A DNA stretch of 50,649 bases from a virus, in the IMG/VR virus record IMGVR_UViG_3300005534_000003, positions 1-50,649 of that record. One strand, written 5' to 3'. Position numbers and translations under genes: made by a program. Every line of letters starts with the position of its first letter. The stretch's first letter is position 1. The notes beneath the pieces are model-generated. The model was not told the DNA's origin, made no database searches, and saw only the letters and a list, made by a program, of their open reading frames with translations. Positions 8,824-50,649 of this stretch are shown piece by piece.

Positions 8824-10288
8824 AGCTGTCATCGTGCTCTTTGACGTTGAATTCTTGTGCCATTGCCGCGTCCATGCCCGCGCTTATGATCTCAGCGGTT
8901 TGCGCCTTGTCACCCTCCAAGAGCTTCTTGGGGATGAAGGTGTTCTCCTCGTTGTGCCTGAATGCCGGTGGGAGCGGGTTCGTCAGCAAGTCCACGCTCC
9001 GCACGAGGTACATCAGCATGGCGAAGCCATCATAGTGGCCGAATGTCTTTGATCGCGAGAACTCCTTGCCCCGAGCCCCGCCCTTCGTCTTGGTCCACAC
9101 CCCGTTCTTGAGACAGCCAAGCGTCTGCACGCATTTCGGACTTACGAAAACACGCCCTTCTTTGATAAGCTCACGCACATCTGACACCATAACGTCCAAA
9201 TAGGTCTTGCTTTCCACGGGCGAGAAGTAGAGATGATGCCGCAAATTGAAGTCCTGAAGAAGCGACGGTGTGTTGTTGTCCGCTATTCGCTTCTTGATCT
9301 CCGCATCCGCGAACACCTCTTTCTCCTTCGCTATGATTCGCTCAGCCAAAAGATCGGTGGTCTGCTCGGGGCTCTTCATACAAACCTCATCCCGAAGCAC
9401 GATTACTGACTTCCCACCAACCCATTCCACGCTAGCGAATCCGCACACGGAATTGTCCGTCCATCCCTGGTCCAGCGCATCGTACTTGAACCAAAACTTG
9501 AAGTTGTCCGTCTTCGGCATCTCTTTCTCATACTCCGGCTTCCACTCTGGGCACAGCTGAAAGTCGGTGTCGATGACGAACTCGCAAAAGAACTCGCGCC
9601 GTACCTTGTGGGAGGTGATGCCCCCAAGGTCCTTTATGAACTTCTCCTGCCGCTCCAGCGAGTAGTGGCTGTCGCGGATGGTGAGCTTCATGTAGGCCCC
9701 GTCTATTTCGGCCTGGTCGCAGTAGCCCTTGAACGCGTGGTCGGGAGTGACCGGAGGCGTTGACAGTAGGAGCATGTTGCCATTACGCGGGATCAGTGTA
9801 GACACCAACGCGCCATCGACTATCTCATCAAGATTCGCAGAGAAGCCCGCCTCGTCGAGTATGATTAGGTCGAACGCAAAAGAACGAAGGTTGTTGTAGG
9901 ACGTTCCCACGCCCTTCCCCACGCCCCTGAAAAGTATCTTGGACCCGTTTGGGAAGACGAGTTGCGTCTTCCTAAGCTTTGGCCGCAGGTGCTCTGGGCA
10001 TGTCGCGAACACCACATCGTAGAGCTGCCGCACGTACTCCTGCACGTCATCCACGGTGGGGGCTATGAACGCCACGAGGGCGTTCTTGTTGGCGATGCAC
10101 GTTTCAGCCCCTAGGAACAAGCCGAGGACGCTCTTGCCTATCTTTCTGGAGCAGTTGACGACGAACTTGGAGTTCTTGCCGATACTCAGCTTGAACCGGT
10201 CATAAATCTTCTTCTGGGACGGGTTCAGGTGAACATAGAGCCGCCCTATCTGCCAGGAAGCCTCGATGGCCTTCTCGGCGTCGGTCAC
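8816..10288 (-). CDS. terL: Terminase large subunit
   Basis: 490 residues. ATPase domain: Walker A CSRKIGKS (46-53) and Walker B DLIILDE (140-146) with the catalytic Glu next to it. An RNase H-like nuclease domain follows: first Asp in KYDALDQGWTDN (about 270), a second acidic site around 335-340 (IADNNTPS), and the last in GHYDGFAM (about 425). It cuts concatemers and drives DNA into the procapsid through the portal. The start is GTG at 10288, four bases after the preceding stop. Length and motif order are normal for the family. Confidence 0.93.
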   Translation of the reverse strand: MTDAEKAIEASWQIGRLYVHLNPSQKKIYDRFKLSIGKNSKFVVNCSRKIGKSVLGLFLGAETCIANKNALVAFIAPTVDDVQEYVRQLYDVVFATCPEHLRPKLRKTQLVFPNGSKILFRGVGKGVGTSYNNLRSFAFDLIILDEAGFSANLDEIVDGALVSTLIPRNGNMLLLSTPPVTPDHAFKGYCDQAEIDGAYMKLTIRDSHYSLERQEKFIKDLGGITSHKVRREFFCEFVIDTDFQLCPEWKPEYEKEMPKTDNFKFWFKYDALDQGWTDNSVCGFASVEWVGGKSVIVLRDEVCMKSPEQTTDLLAERIIAKEKEVFADAEIKKRIADNNTPSLLQDFNLRHHLYFSPVESKTYLDVMVSDVRELIKEGRVFVSPKCVQTLGCLKNGVWTKTKGGARGKEFSRSKTFGHYDGFAMLMYLVRSVDLLTNPLPPAFRHNEENTFIPKKLLEGDKAQTAEIISAGMDAAMAQEFNVKEHDDSYD

Positions 10289-17727: not shown

Positions 17728-17883
17728 ATGCTAAAAAACGTTACAACGAATGATGAAACTTTTCTATGCGAAGATGGACAAGGAAATGGGTGCGGTCGTC
17801 TATTCGATGGCGTCGCTATACGCCAAATCCGAGGCCTCTGTGAGGTTTGCGCGGCTGACTTGCCAGACGAGGAAGGTTGCTAA
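17728..17883 (+). CDS. Zinc-ribbon-like mini-protein, 51 residues
   Basis: ATG follows GAGAGGAG. CEDGQGNGCGR and LCEVCAAD supply four Cys, plus a last Cys before the stop. Ends as TAATG with the sigma-like gene, so the two are probably made together and could act together. Function unknown. Confidence 0.55.
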   Translation: MLKNVTTNDETFLCEDGQGNGCGRLFDGVAIRQIRGLCEVCAADLPDEEGC

Positions 17884-18278
17884 TGTCAAAGTATATTAAA
17901 ACACAAAAAACTCGCGTTAGACAAAGTAAAGATGCAAGTTTTAGTGAGAGTTCACCCTATTGGGATGATGTTAGACAGCATGGGCGTACTGGAAACAATG
18001 AAGAATGGGACGAACATCCCCAAGCAAATCCCGATGTATTGCCTGAAACGGATATAGCCGCTCCTTCGACTCCTCAACTCTTAATGGGCGAAGCGATTGA
18101 ACATCTGCAAGGGCGACAAAAAGAAGTGTATTTTTTAATTATGCGAGAGAATAAGTCTGAATCTGAAGTCGCAGAAATTCTAGATATTCCAAGAGGAAAT
18201 GTAAGTAAATATAAAAAACGTGCGGTAAAATTCATCTCACAATATTGTAAAGCGGCAATAGCAAAAGGGAGAGTATAA
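17883..18278 (+). CDS. Sigma-region-4-like helix-turn-helix protein
   Basis: 131 residues. The first 60 are polar and disordered (HGRTGNNEEWDEHPQ). Residues about 65-125 read as sigma region 4: EHLQGRQKEVYFLIMREN, then SESEVAEILDIPRGNVSKY (helix-turn-helix), then KKRAVKFISQY. There is no region 2, so it is not a complete sigma factor; it may redirect host RNA polymerase or bind promoter DNA alone. It is preceded by the repeat element at 17681-17726, hinting at self-control. Start chosen at ATG with GAGGAAGG upstream. Confidence 0.65.
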   Translation: MSKYIKTQKTRVRQSKDASFSESSPYWDDVRQHGRTGNNEEWDEHPQANPDVLPETDIAAPSTPQLLMGEAIEHLQGRQKEVYFLIMRENKSESEVAEILDIPRGNVSKYKKRAVKFISQYCKAAIAKGRV

Positions 18279-19921: not shown

Positions 19922-20562
19922 TGCCACATAGCGAGTGCTTCATCGACGGAATTTGGTATCCAAGCGTGACGACTATCATGCGCGCTGAACCAAAGCCGTG
20001 GCTTGATAATTGGCGCGAGAAGTGGGGTACACGAGCTACGCGTAAAATGGATATCGCCGCTGCTGTTGGAACGGCATTCCATGATTGTGTCGAGCAGTAT
20101 CTTGACACGGGAAAATTCACGGCGAGAATGGAAAAATATTCGTCTTGTATTCCCCGCGTAGTAGGGATGATGGAGTCATGGATTGATTGGGCTGTGAACG
20201 TGGATGGCACAATAGATCATACGGAATTGAAAGTGATAAGTAAATTGTATACCTATAGCGGTACGTTTGACGCTGTGGGCCATATCGGTAAAGCACTTAG
20301 GCTGATCGACTGGAAAACGAGTAGTCGCATTTATGATGACTTCGAGTTGCAATTAGCCGCCTATGCTCAAGCATATAAAGAACAAACAGGCGTCGATGTT
20401 AGAGTTGGGTTGATCGTTCACGTCTCCAAAGATAAACCGCGATTCAAATTGACGACGAAAGAGTTCAAACTCGGGAAGCGTGTGTTAAGTAAATTCTTAA
20501 AGCTGCGGGCAATGTTCGATGAAATACAAACACCCGCTGAAGGAGTGACAGCAGATGAATAG
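19921..20562 (+). CDS. RecB/Cas4-like PD-(D/E)XK exonuclease
   Basis: 213 residues. GTAFHDCVEQY places His54 and Glu58; GTFDAVG gives Asp117; RLIDWKTSS gives Asp130 and Lys132 (the D-x-K core); and QLAAYAQAY is the Gln/Tyr motif that follows in this family. It has no C-terminal Fe-S cysteines. It should resect DNA ends for replication or recombination together with the upstream putative ssDNA-binding protein and the ligase gene. Confidence 0.8.
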   Translation: MPHSECFIDGIWYPSVTTIMRAEPKPWLDNWREKWGTRATRKMDIAAAVGTAFHDCVEQYLDTGKFTARMEKYSSCIPRVVGMMESWIDWAVNVDGTIDHTELKVISKLYTYSGTFDAVGHIGKALRLIDWKTSSRIYDDFELQLAAYAQAYKEQTGVDVRVGLIVHVSKDKPRFKLTTKEFKLGKRVLSKFLKLRAMFDEIQTPAEGVTADE

Positions 20563-21598
20563 TTGGCATTCTTATAGTTCGATTTTCAACATGGGCCATA
20601 AGGCGATAGCAGATTTGCTCAAAGGGCCGGTATATGTCGAAGAGAAAGTGGACGGCTCACAATTCTCATTCGGCTTAATCGAAACATCCGAATTTGAACA
20701 ATCCCGAGGGAAAGAACCTTTTAAATTGCGGGTTCGTTCTAAAGGGGTTGAAATGGTGTTGGATGCGCCCGATAAGATGTTTTCATTGGCTGTCGCCACC
20801 GTAAAAGAGTTGAAAGATAAACTCCATCCTGGGTGGACATACCGTTGTGAATATCTTCGCGCACCTAAGCATAATGCTTTAATCTACAAACGTATCCCCG
20901 AGAAACATCTTATTATATTTGACATCGAAATCAACGAATGCGAGTTTCTTTCGTATCAAGAGAAGTTTGCTGAAGCTCAACGTTTGGGACTCGAAACTGT
21001 TCCATTATTGCACGAAGGAATTGTCAAAGACATCGAGGAATTCCGTCATTTCTTGAACTTGCAAAGCATTCTTGGTGGTCAAAATATTGAAGGCGTCGTA
21101 GTGAAGCCAGTAGGTTATGGCTTGTTTGGCAAGGATAAGAAAGTGCTTATGGGCAAATTCGTGAGCGAGGCATTCAAGGAAGTGCACGCACATATGTGGA
21201 AGGCCGACAATCCCACGGTCAATGACATTGTGGCAGCTCTTGGCACATCCTATGGCACACAAGCGCGTTGGCAGAAAGCTTTGCAGCATCTTTTGGAACA
21301 GGGGCTTATCACAGATGCACCGCAGGACATCGGCTTATTGATGAAAGAAGTACCAGTGGACATTAAGCGCGAGTGCCACGAAGAGATCATGGACAAGCTT
21401 TTCGCGTTTGCATGGCCGCACATATCGAGAATGGTCGTGCGAGGCTTGCCGGAATGGTACAAAGATTTGCTTTTGAAGAAACAATTTGAGAGGGAGGACA
21501 ACAATGAAAAAGCCCCCGTCGAACAAGCGGCAAGCGGTGAAGAAAATCAAAGTGTGCATTCGGGAGAGTCGGAAGCTGGCGCGGCAAATCAATCGTAA
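20555..21598 (+). CDS. RNA ligase (nucleotidyltransferase)
   Basis: 347 residues. Motif I EEKVDGSQ with nucleophile Lys31, motif III YRCEYL, motif IIIa LIIFDIEI, motif IV EGVVVK, motif V KVLMGKF. The order and spacing match Rnl2-type RNA ligases more than DNA ligases. The C-terminal 40 residues are acidic and disordered. Phage RNA ligases repair tRNAs cut by host defence nucleases; this phage carries its own initiator tRNA at 50407-50481. Overlaps the exonuclease gene by eight bases. Confidence 0.75.
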   Translation: MNSWHSYSSIFNMGHKAIADLLKGPVYVEEKVDGSQFSFGLIETSEFEQSRGKEPFKLRVRSKGVEMVLDAPDKMFSLAVATVKELKDKLHPGWTYRCEYLRAPKHNALIYKRIPEKHLIIFDIEINECEFLSYQEKFAEAQRLGLETVPLLHEGIVKDIEEFRHFLNLQSILGGQNIEGVVVKPVGYGLFGKDKKVLMGKFVSEAFKEVHAHMWKADNPTVNDIVAALGTSYGTQARWQKALQHLLEQGLITDAPQDIGLLMKEVPVDIKRECHEEIMDKLFAFAWPHISRMVVRGLPEWYKDLLLKKQFEREDNNEKAPVEQAASGEENQSVHSGESEAGAANQS

Positions 21599-30676: not shown

Positions 30677-31408
30677 ATGAAACGAACCATTAGAACGTGC
30701 GCCATTCTCATCCTGCTTGGCCTTGGAATCTACGGATACAAGAAAAATCGTATACCGGAAATCAGAGCTAAAATGCCTACCACGCGTTATCACGGCTATG
30801 AAATAAACCGCGCGGCCATCGCTAGAACCAAGGCTTTCACTGTCCTTATAAGCAATGAGGGCATTGGTGGTGTTGGTCGTGGTACCGGCATCCTCATTGA
30901 CGCTACGCATGTTCTCACATGCGCTCATATGGTACGAAGTCCGCAGGATGACTTGTGGATTTTCCCCTTTCCTGTAGGTGTCGTGGCTAAAGGAAAACCT
31001 GTATTCGTCGGTAAGTCGGTGGACCTTGCCATCCTTGAACTTGACAAATCCATTGATCTGGAACATTATGCGACATTTCAAGAGGAGCACTATGATGGGG
31101 AACCCATAACGATCATCGGTAACACAAAAGGCTTGATGATGTGGTTTGTGAGTTTCGGTATCATTAGCGGCAGCCAAGAAAACTACTTGCTAACCGATGG
31201 TACACTTTACGGTGGCAATAGTGGAGGCCCGTGGATCAACGAGAAAGGCGAAGTGTTGGCTTTGACCGATTGGACGCTTGTTTACAATGGGGTTGAGAGC
31301 GGCATTCATGGTGGTGTGTCGGCTAAGACAATCAATGAGTTTCTAGGCGTATGGAAGAATCCAATGGTGGGGATGTTGTTGAAAATTCTTAGTGGAGGTG
31401 GCAAGTGA
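30677..31408 (+). CDS. Trypsin-like serine protease, membrane-anchored or secreted
   Basis: 243 residues. An N-terminal hydrophobic segment (TIRTCAILILLGLGIYGY) acts as signal or anchor. Chymotrypsin-fold triad: His84 in TCAHMV, Asp116 in VDLAIL, Ser182 in GGNSGGP, with the oxyanion Gly before it and the strand GVGRGTGILI ahead of the His. No PDZ domain follows. It would cleave proteins in the host envelope or outside the cell, or mature other exported phage proteins. ATG follows GGAGAAGTAA. Confidence 0.8.
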   Translation: MKRTIRTCAILILLGLGIYGYKKNRIPEIRAKMPTTRYHGYEINRAAIARTKAFTVLISNEGIGGVGRGTGILIDATHVLTCAHMVRSPQDDLWIFPFPVGVVAKGKPVFVGKSVDLAILELDKSIDLEHYATFQEEHYDGEPITIIGNTKGLMMWFVSFGIISGSQENYLLTDGTLYGGNSGGPWINEKGEVLALTDWTLVYNGVESGIHGGVSAKTINEFLGVWKNPMVGMLLKILSGGGK

Positions 31409-48466: not shown

Positions 48467-48814
48467 CTACCGAAGGTAATCAATCGCTTTTTGGAGGATC
48501 ACTATACTATCTCTTGCTTTTCCAACCATATGATTACAAGAAAGACACAATAAGCCGCGTACTTTACCTGTCAAATGGTTATGATCTACATGAGCAGTAT
48601 AGAGTGTTTCAAAGGGTAATGAACAAATTTTGCATTGCCCATTTTGACTTTTAAACATCTCCGTTTTTTCCTGAAGGGTGATACCGTACTTCGAAAGCAA
48701 TTTTCGATTGACGACCTTATCTTTATGAACTTGCTCATACTTTAGACTTGCAAGCCGATGTTTTTCGGGATGCAATCTATTATATTCGCGATGATAGGCT
48801 CGTCTATCTTTCAT
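48467..48814 (-). CDS. Endonuclease VII-like nuclease directly after the capsid gene
   Basis: 115 residues, TAATG overlap with the capsid stop. Basic N-terminal helix, then KYGITLQEKTEMFKSQNG, QCKICSLPF, HVDHNHLTGKVRGLLCLSCN and a final helix: the full endonuclease VII order. It shares DHxHxTGxxRxLLCxxCNH with 11994-12428, so the two are paralogous or separately acquired. Next to a conserved capsid gene this looks like a free-standing homing nuclease. Confidence 0.85.
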   Translation of the reverse strand: MKDRRAYHREYNRLHPEKHRLASLKYEQVHKDKVVNRKLLSKYGITLQEKTEMFKSQNGQCKICSLPFETLYTAHVDHNHLTGKVRGLLCLSCNHMVGKARDSIVILQKAIDYLR

Positions 48815-50100
48815 TAGCTTCGCGGAACGATATTGTTAATCAAGCACATATGTGAGGGAGTTTCGGCAAACACTGTATTGTCTGCCCAAATTCTCACTTG
48901 GTACCCAGCGAAGTCTCCGAGAGGAACCTGGAGATAGCTGTCCGTGGAAGTCCCAGGGAGCTGGAACGTCAGCTCGCTTGAACCGATGCGGGTGATGCTA
49001 TCCGTAGGATAGAGCAGAGCCTCGCCGCGCTTCATCAGCGGGTGCGGGACAATGGTCATCGTACCGGAAGGAGAATAGAACTCAAGGGCGTCGGCCCCGT
49101 TGTCCATTTTCTTCCCTTTCACATCGCCGTATCGGCGGGCAGCCGCCTGCTCGGTCAAGAGGTCGCTGAAGGATGTCAAGGGCACCAGCACGGTGCACTC
49201 TTCGCCCATCAGTCCCTTGTCGCCAGGCAGAGTGATAGCCTTTTGCAGCTTGCCGAAGGACAGAGGAGCCGTACCGGCGTCGTACGTATTCCCTTGCCAA
49301 AGCGGCCACGTCACTGAATTGATGCTGAACAGCGTTCCCATGTTGGAGGCAATGGTGATTAAGCCAACGCCTTCGATGGGGGTAGTGAACGTCGATCCGA
49401 ACGCGCCGTTGAAAGCAACGTTCAGCGGTGTGGCGGTCAAGGCAACGAGAGCAGTGCTGCCAGTCGTGGTACCATTGACAGTGATCGTGAAGGACGTGAA
49501 GTTCATACCAACCACTTGGAACACGGAATCCGCGCCAGAAGAAACTAACGCATTCGTGTCAGAGCGGTAGAACTGCACTTGCGCTCCAATCGAGGAAGCC
49601 CAGATGCCAGTCGCCCAAGAATCGGCGGTCAGTTGCACCGTAGACTGCGTGGAGCTAACGGCTGTGACAGAAGACGAAAGACCAATACCACGGGTTCCGT
49701 GGAGATAGGTACATTCGAGGCGGAAGCCCGCCCCTTCGGTCATGTCGTTGAGCGTGATGTCAACGGCCTTTCCGAAGCTGTTCTTTCCAGCCGAACGGCT
49801 GATGGCCGTGTAGCTGATGTTGTCTCGGCGAATGAGGCTGAACGCCGGTACGAGAGCATTTTCCATCTGGAGCCCAATGGCCGCGTTCAACGCGAAGGCT
49901 GAGCCATCGGTGTTGTACGTGTATCCCTGGCCGGACTGGACTTTCACCGGAGCGTTGAACTTGTCTCCGAGTTGCTTCATCCCTTTTTCTACGGTCGTGT
50001 TCTTGAGAATGTACGCGTAGTTGGGAACTAAGTCTTTGATCTTGTCCTGGTAGGCTTGTTTAAAGTCACCATTCAATGCACTTAAATCTACGTCACTCAT
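48814..50100 (-). CDS. Major capsid protein (HK97-type)
   Basis: 428 residues, ATG after AAAGGA. N-terminal helix (DLSALNGDFKQAYQDKIKD), then a long-loop region (GKAVDITLNDMTEGAGF). Residues about 140-235 form a Thr/Ser/Val-rich insertion like an Ig-type or I-domain. The C-terminal axial part has LVPLTSFSDLLTEQAAARRYGD, GTMTIVPHPLMKRG and ELTFQLPGTS. Its size, the scaffold upstream and the portal in the same unit support the call. Confidence 0.8.
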   Translation of the reverse strand: MSDVDLSALNGDFKQAYQDKIKDLVPNYAYILKNTTVEKGMKQLGDKFNAPVKVQSGQGYTYNTDGSAFALNAAIGLQMENALVPAFSLIRRDNISYTAISRSAGKNSFGKAVDITLNDMTEGAGFRLECTYLHGTRGIGLSSSVTAVSSTQSTVQLTADSWATGIWASSIGAQVQFYRSDTNALVSSGADSVFQVVGMNFTSFTITVNGTTTGSTALVALTATPLNVAFNGAFGSTFTTPIEGVGLITIASNMGTLFSINSVTWPLWQGNTYDAGTAPLSFGKLQKAITLPGDKGLMGEECTVLVPLTSFSDLLTEQAAARRYGDVKGKKMDNGADALEFYSPSGTMTIVPHPLMKRGEALLYPTDSITRIGSSELTFQLPGTSTDSYLQVPLGDFAGYQVRIWADNTVFAETPSHMCLINNIVPRS

Positions 50101-50296
50101 TTTGTTTTTCCTTTACTGCATGATCGCCACCAATCAAAGCTACTCGCCGAGGATTTGGATAGGTGTTAGCGTCCTCTTTCTCGTCTTTCGACAGGGTACG
50201 GTGGTCGTCATCTTCCGCTTCGGCTTGATCTGGTCCCCTCGCGGCTTGGGGATGCAGATAAATCGTGTCAGGTTTTTTGGAAAGAAAACTTGACAT
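50093..50296 (-). CDS. Small charged protein ahead of the capsid gene, 67 residues
   Basis: Ends eight bases inside the capsid start. Polar and disordered (ARGPDQAEAEDDDHRTLSKD) with an N-terminal SSFLSKKPDTIYLHP. No clear ribosome site ahead of its ATG, so it could be non-coding leader; coupling to capsid translation argues for it. Confidence 0.4.
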   Translation of the reverse strand: MSSFLSKKPDTIYLHPQAARGPDQAEAEDDDHRTLSKDEKEDANTYPNPRRVALIGGDHAVKEKQNE

Positions 50297-50304
50297 AAAA
50301 ACTT

Positions 50305-50375
50305 AGTCCCAGATAAGACTTGCACTTATAACCTAGCCCCTACGGGCTACTCTCTCGTTGTTGAGCTACTGGTAT
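50305..50375 (-). other. Degenerate tRNA-like structure
   Basis: In leftward reading there is a T-arm (ATAAG, a seven-base loop TGCAAGT, CTTAT), a D-arm-like GCTC...GAG, and acceptor halves ATACCAG / CTGGGAC that pair at five of seven positions. The anticodon arm pairs as TAGCC/GGCTA around an abnormal six-base loop with GTA. No CCA is encoded. It may be a decayed tRNA or another structured RNA. Confidence 0.3.
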
Positions 50376-50406
50376 CCCTTTTCGGGCTGGTTTGACCAAT
50401 TCCAGA

Positions 50407-50481
50407 TGGTTGCAGGGAAGGGAGTCGAACCCTCTATCTTCGGCTTATGAGGCCGACGAGATGCCGTTTCTCCACCCTACG
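50407..50481 (-). tRNA. Initiator tRNA-fMet (anticodon CAT)
   Basis: 75 bases with CCA encoded. Acceptor CGTAGGG/CCCTGCA pairs at six positions, with a C1 x A72 mismatch; D stem GAGA/TCTC has A11:T24; anticodon stem TCGGC/GCCGA; loop CTCATAA with CAT; T stem GAGGG/CCCTT with loop TTCGACT. The C1/A72 mismatch, A11:T24 pair and CTCATAA loop are hallmarks of bacterial initiator tRNA. It starts six bases after the scaffold stop, so it is cut out of the late transcript. Confidence 0.92.
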
Positions 50482-50486
50482 AATCT

Positions 50487-50538
50487 TTACGAGTTGCCTG
50501 GCGCGCCAGGATGAAGCCCGATCCCCTGCTCCGACTTC
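50487..50538 (-). CDS. Capsid scaffolding protein, C-terminal 16 codons and stop
   Basis: This is the end of the gene that starts at 935. Crossing the circle junction the frame reads on through MKSEQGIGLHPGAPGNS and stops at TAA. Bases 50539-50649 repeat window bases 1-111 of the same gene. Confidence 0.8.
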
Positions 50539-50649
50539 ATCTGCCGAAGTGCCTTCCAGTAGGCCTTCCCTTTCAGCTTGGAAAGGTCAACCTTGTTCTG
50601 CGGATTGGGATTGACCGTCTTCTTCTCCGGCACTGGATTGGCCGTGGTG
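50539..50649. repeat. Terminal direct repeat, right copy
   Basis: Identical to bases 1-111. Joining the copies keeps the scaffold frame open, which supports a circular map of about 50,538 bp. Confidence 0.9.

Follow-up and report, generated by a model that had tools for sequence, protein, structure and literature searches.

In initiation complexes, the A1339 and G1338 residues of 16S rRNA contact the 30:40 and 29:41 pairs of the initiator tRNA anticodon stem through A-minor interactions, and changing G30:C40 into C30:G40 lowers translation 20-fold (PMC11497404). The initiator tRNA-fMet is also cut by VapC toxins in its anticodon stem-loop (PMC7180214, PMC5408214). The cuts made by tRNA-attacking VapC toxins fall in the anticodon, or 3′ of the anticodon before the stem, and leave 3′-OH and 5′-phosphate ends (PMC7180214); since the ends are of this type, an RNA ligase alone can seal them and no kinase is needed. 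Phage tRNAs have been argued to escape host anticodon nucleases (PMC10264068). According to the same study, phages whose hosts have the Shigella VapC tend to lack tRNA-fMet (PMC10264068), a trend that is evidence against the simple form of the nuclease-escape idea.

Initiator-class tRNAs are a known kind of phage tRNA, and in the case described here it is the anticodon stem that varies. The nuclease-escaping phage tRNAs and the T4 Rnl1/Pnkp repair system both resemble the present case, in that a variant anticodon arm goes together with an RNA ligase in the genome. In the present case, however, the target would be an initiator, and the changed pair lies in the stem rather than in the loop.

Location and identity of the tRNA gene

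The window (the whole stretch of DNA analysed, 50,649 nucleotides) carries an exact 111-bp terminal overlap, positions 1-111 being identical to 50539-50649, and the gene upstream of the tRNA runs across the contig ends (50487..50649 on the minus strand plus 899-3, also minus). The overlap and the gene crossing the ends together indicate that the genome is complete, at about 50.5 kb, and that it has one tRNA; the record is labelled linear, yet it holds a complete, circularly permuted genome. ARAGORN, which the sequence-only reading had named as a check, calls exactly one tRNA in the whole window, a tRNA-Met(CAT) at 50407-50481 on the minus strand, and the same interval gives the sole Rfam hit across the 50.6 kb (RF00005, 54 bits, E 6e-9). 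Read arm by arm on the minus strand, its 5′ half is CGTAGGG TG GAGA AACGGCA TCTC G TCGGC CTCATAA GCCGA and its 3′ half is AGATA GAGGG TTCGACT CCCTT CCCTGCA ACCA.

The features that had been picked out from the letters are all present. The 1:72 position is a C1×A72 mismatch, the 11:24 pair is the purine:pyrimidine pair A11:U24, the CAU anticodon sits in a CUCAUAA loop, and A73 is followed by an encoded CCA end. The E. coli metZWV/metY tRNA-fMet likewise has a 1:72 mismatch, A11:U24, CUCAUAA, A73 and CCA, and shares G29:C41 and G30:C40 with the window tRNA; it differs at the third anticodon-stem pair, which is G31:C39 in E. coli and C31:G39 here, so that the strict run of three G:C pairs is interrupted. 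The window tRNA also departs from it in having a 7-nt D loop and A15/A48, which form no Levitt pair, while T8/A14 and the T loop TTCGACT are in place. Aligned with E. coli tRNA-fMet, 57 of 75 positions are identical with 2 gap positions (alignment score 36.5), and the tRNA model shows no defect in this copy. A cellular initiator of identical sequence was searched for and none was found, and the gene does not copy any known host gene. As judged from its sequence, 50407-50481 very probably encodes a competent initiator-class tRNA; its identity is read from the sequence, and its function is what we infer.

The tRNA was described as lying between scaffold and capsid genes, and this placement holds for a putative scaffold. 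The upstream protein, whose 3′ end reads ...KAYWKALRQMKSEQGIGLHPGAPGNS*, was traced by tblastn with a 326-aa homologue from the relative L010 (88-90% identity); its stop codon occupies 50487-50489, and the tRNA starts 5 nt later. We call it scaffold-like for its position and composition, the closest PHROG having no name. On the other side, about 300 nt away, lies the 428-aa putative major capsid protein (48814..50100, minus strand), which matches NCBIfam capsid_maj_Podo with an E of 1.1e-6, under the curated cut-off. The capsid recurs in fifteen IMG/VR loci, with full-length matches 77-95% identical, and no capsid relatives were found among 84,980 species genomes. Host assignment through the nearest isolate relative, a Silvanigrella-associated phage at 26-28% identity, was considered too weak to name a host.

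Anticodon-stem variation in viral and cellular initiators

The suggestion that an initiator tRNA is a rarity in phages does not survive comparison. With E. coli tRNA-fMet as query, 295 of 50,697 phage records match at E<=1e-5, and initiator-like tRNAs also match many IMG/VR contigs. Phage tRNAs from the E. coli tRNA-fMet search (11) and from the search with the window tRNA (3) were checked individually. The 1:72 mismatch and A11:U24 occur together in phiKX1 (Komagataeibacter), NV1.1.1 (Sinorhizobium), phiCbK (Caulobacter), Roots515, Lak-B5, Muntaha (Streptomyces) and DoCa5 (Xanthomonas), and all of these except Roots515 and Lak-B5 have the anticodon stem altered as well, several of them departing at 29:41 or 31:39. 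The window tRNA is the sole tRNA of its genome and stands within the head-gene block, whereas the tRNA-Met of the Vibrio V05 phage stands in a tRNA array.

We have sampled IMG/VR with a pattern in which the initiator D arm and anticodon loop were fixed and the anticodon stem was left free, which gave 117 matches before duplicate removal and 106 distinct sequences. G30:C40 is retained in 105 of the 106. At 29:41 the distinct viral initiators have A:T (59), G:C (31) or T:A (16), and at 31:39 they have G:C in 87 cases and another pair in 19. The 1:72 position is a mismatch in 80 and a T:A pair in 18; the mismatches take many forms (CA, TT, GA, AA, CT and AC, in loci L304-L415 and others).

The same pattern was applied to two phyla, Pseudomonadota and Bacteroidota, which make up the cellular baseline, the matches listed being counted by hand. 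Among the 150 Pseudomonadota matches listed there are 74 AGG:CCT stems, 75 GGG:CCC stems and one Achromobacter locus that had served as the search seed and was excluded from the comparison of cells with viruses; the Bacteroidota gave 147 GGG:CCC and 1 AGG:CCT (n=148). Neither a 31:39 pair other than G:C nor T29:A41 occurs among the resulting 297 cellular matches listed. The difference between viruses and cells is significant by Fisher tests on the 117 undeduplicated viral matches (7e-13 for 31:39 and 1e-11 for T29:A41). Any proviruses or host flanks among the IMG/VR contigs would only dilute it. Thus the cellular matches listed vary only at 29:41 and never at 31:39, whereas the window tRNA varies at 31:39. 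Of the 84,980 species genomes, 9 have C31:G39 together with an initiator D stem, four of these copies being in tRNA arrays.

The altered three-G run had been noted as a departure from the usual. The C31:G39 pair is real, but an altered run is not unusual, since the run is commonly altered in Pseudomonadota (A29:U41) and in viruses. Because the strict run fails in 74 of the 150 Pseudomonadota matches listed, it does not define the family; G30:C40 does, and the window tRNA has it. From this listing, alphaproteobacterial initiators would resemble the window tRNA in having the canonical run altered with G30:C40 kept. The initiators of mycoplasmas do so too.

The window tRNA keeps 29:41 and 30:40, and the flipped pair 31:39 is the one that 16S rRNA leaves uncontacted in the initiation complexes. 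The viral pattern fits a tRNA that keeps what the ribosome reads and changes elsewhere. The variation of the stem in viruses, set against its constancy in the sampled cells, appears to us to be the most interesting point from these sequences, and no paper describing it was found in the literature searched. With 30:40 nearly fixed over 106 viral sequences, and 31:39 and 29:41 free, unlike in the sampled cells, viruses may show, as a natural experiment, which features of the initiator tRNA are indispensable to the ribosome.

Clavibacter phage CN1A (50108-50183) and Phocaeicola phage PV4-TP1 (71157-71230; L487 and L489) have unannotated tRNAs with an initiator-like body and unusual anticodon loops (CTCATAT and ATCATAG).

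A candidate RNA ligase and a possible role for the tRNA

The genome also encodes a candidate tRNA repair enzyme, a putative RNA ligase of 347 aa with the nucleotidyl-transfer motif EEKVDG (20555..21598, plus strand; PF09414 5.5e-14, phrog_548 5.7e-24). Its AlphaFold2 model is poor (pLDDT 38.5). Of seven genomes of roughly 50 kb, the ligase is present in three (G000, G001 and G009, the window among them) and missing in the other four (G005, G006, G012 and G013) from the corresponding place between the exonuclease and primase genes. An Rfam-detected tRNA occurs in exactly the same three of seven, the tRNA of G001 being divergent (26.8 bits). The co-occurrence gives a Fisher value of 0.029 with n=7, ignoring relatedness, and a tree-based sign test has too little power. 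In the primase tree the three genomes do not form one clade (three changes), which speaks against pure common descent, although seven genomes carry no strong claim. G005 and G006, which have neither gene, appear to be complete, since their ends repeat exactly over 37 and 24 bp; the tRNA and the ligase are therefore dispensable, and the tRNA is an accessory element. It is possible that the ligase is a functional partner of the tRNA. An AAA_33-type kinase/phosphatase was searched for as partner and none was found, a difference from T4 Rnl1/Pnkp; a search for a peptide deformylase likewise gave none, and no further RNA- or tRNA-modifying function came out of scans against Rfam and Pfam.

One role raised at the outset was to stand in for an initiator that host defence has destroyed. 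The ligase and the location of the variant pair lend it circumstantial support: the flipped 31:39 adjoins the anticodon loop, next to the region where VapC cuts (the comparison being with canonical G31:C39). In such a scheme, the tRNA would be co-transcribed with the late head genes. Host RNase P and 3′ processing would release it, host MetRS and MTF would charge and formylate it, and IF2 would load it, so that the phage would add an initiator pool of its own in the late phase of infection. The phage RNA ligase could reseal VapC-type cuts, and the main selective reason for the gene would be sustained initiation while the host attacks its own initiator tRNA. We consider the chances evenly balanced that this is a working phage initiator tRNA, providing an extra, nuclease-tolerant pool that keeps initiation going under host attack. 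A plausible reading of the sequences, which we hold tentatively, is that the tRNA serves mainly as a counter-nuclease supply.

A wider proposal is that viral initiators are a class remodelled under host attack, combined in this phage with a ligase pairing and with a chain of RNAs controlling the capsid gene. As a joint reading it seems unlikely to hold in full. Its statement about the class, made within that joint reading and equally doubtful, is that the 1:72 mismatch and G30:C40 are kept while 29:41 and 31:39 are changed, so that nucleases would miss the tRNA. If the stem changes do shield the tRNA from VapC-like toxins, there would be a reason for phages to carry an initiator tRNA at all, and the nuclease-escape idea would extend from codon-reading tRNAs to translation initiation.

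An added initiator might also simply raise initiation on abundant late mRNAs, with no relation to host defence. The position of the gene within the late head-gene block and its intact initiator determinants agree with such a dosage effect; however, the tRNA is missing from close relatives that share the capsid and the leader, and dosage leaves unexplained why 31:39 and 29:41 vary in viruses but not in cells, and we think this account rather unlikely. A further suggestion, that the tRNA favours leaderless or non-ATG starts, was rejected: ATG starts 17 of the 18 large minus-strand ORFs inspected, most of them with an SD-like motif, and the late genes, that of the capsid included, start with ATG and mostly have a purine-rich motif of this kind.

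Structured RNAs between the tRNA and the capsid gene

Downstream of the tRNA lies a second tRNA-like element, predicted to be non-decoding (50305..50397, minus strand). It has an 8-bp acceptor stem (GGTC//CCAG:CTGGGACT) with a 21-nt hairpin inserted into its 5′ strand, followed by a D-like arm, a short hairpin that replaces the anticodon arm, and a T arm with the invariant loop TGCAAGT. The same architecture recurs with compensated stems, including the T arms, in the relatives L013 and L014, and a related form in L002, L003 and L015.

The 160 nt upstream of the capsid ATG (50101..50260, minus strand) form a predicted leader RNA, in which P1, P2, a pseudoknot, P3 and P4 are arranged around the invariant loop GGACGYTAAYNCCTATCC (50157..50174), with helices compensated over 13 sequences, namely the window and 12 relatives (L002-L010 and L013-L015). 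A Shine-Dalgarno-like motif, AAAGGA (50109..50114), stands 8 nt ahead of the capsid ATG and is also invariant in the relatives. Within-sequence complementarity is significant for P2 (p 1e-3), the pseudoknot (5e-5), P4 (5e-5) and P3 (0.027). RNAalifold on a MAFFT alignment of the leader recovers only P1, P2 and the loop-closing pairs; since MAFFT misaligns the covarying helices, tests of each helix against its own and against other sequences were used instead. The folding of the window leader as a single sequence is not below that of shuffles (z -0.26). The leader has no Rfam match. From the alignment of relatives, it appears to be a covarying, pseudoknotted RNA restricted to this phage group, and it may exert translational control of capsid synthesis. 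It occurs with or without the tRNA, which shows that the two are separable.

Several further candidates were set aside. The leader loop motif in L020 and L027 lies in unrelated sequence, and the Tymo_tRNA-like and Twister-sister Rfam matches are under threshold; all were taken as chance. A 67-aa ORF over the leader (50093-50296, minus strand) is probably spurious, its reading frame not being conserved in relatives.

The tRNA site among close relatives

Within the clade, two loci have a canonical initiator-like tRNA at the site, namely L010 (57 bits) and the window (54 bits). Seven others (L002, L003, L005, L009, L013, L014 and L015) have divergent tRNA-like copies, most of which keep C1×A72, CUCAUAA and ACCA, and the tRNA is missing in L004, L006, L007, L008 and L011, L006 showing a clean empty site when compared with L010. 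In the divergent copies, G8/T14 or A8/T14 replaces T8/A14, and for three of them the Rfam model of tRNA gives no hit with the threshold relaxed to E 10. For the nine homologues, which were found by eye and by their CTCATAA loop and are hence biased to copies retaining it, the stems pair far better within than between sequences (permutation p 2e-5 for the anticodon stem, 4e-5 for the T stem and 2e-5 for the D stem); this suggests that the divergent copies are not simply rotting.

A serious rival to the counter-nuclease role is that the tRNA, the second element and the leader act in cis on the late transcript, as elements for its processing and stability. The upstream gene would be cut apart from the capsid gene by RNase P and tRNA 3′ processing, leaving a stable, separate and highly translated capsid mRNA, and charging would be irrelevant. 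Such a role would suit a junction filled by three consecutive structured RNAs, in which a promoter- or terminator-like site was searched for and none was found. It would also suit the divergent relatives, which hold the tRNA fold by compensated changes while most lack U8:A14 and three are not recognized by the tRNA model, and the copy in L015, which ends directly at the leader. Yet L004, L006, L007 and L008 retain the leader and the capsid gene without any tRNA, and C1×A72, CUCAUAA and the encoded CCA, which a processing signal does not need, are kept in most copies. On balance we judge it improbable, by about as much as a pure dosage effect.

Less probable by far is that the gene is a captured host initiator drifting and decaying as a passenger. 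The mixture of present, absent and divergent copies within one clade and the empty site in L006 are what a passenger would leave; the maintenance of stems by compensatory change in nine homologues, the defect-free copy in the window and the failure to find a cellular initiator of the same sequence speak against it. That the window tRNA is an elongator tRNA-Met or a lysidine-dependent Ile2 tRNA can be practically dismissed: these share its CUCAUAA loop, but C1×A72, A11:U24 and alignment scores of 10 against elongator Met and 1.5 against Ile2, compared with 36.5 against tRNA-fMet, contradict it.

Some minor observations were made in the same genomes. In L005, a second tRNA with the anticodon TGC (45.4 bits) lies directly after the initiator-derived copy, at about 9753-9825 on the plus strand. 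A short ORF encoding about 78-90 aa (...GTDxAWHxVTSA) stands between the upstream and capsid genes in L005, L006, L008, L009, L010 and L013, and is missing from the junction of the window. Elsewhere, the window encodes a small sigma-70 region 4 protein (17877-18278, plus strand) and a trypsin-like protease (30677-31408, plus strand).
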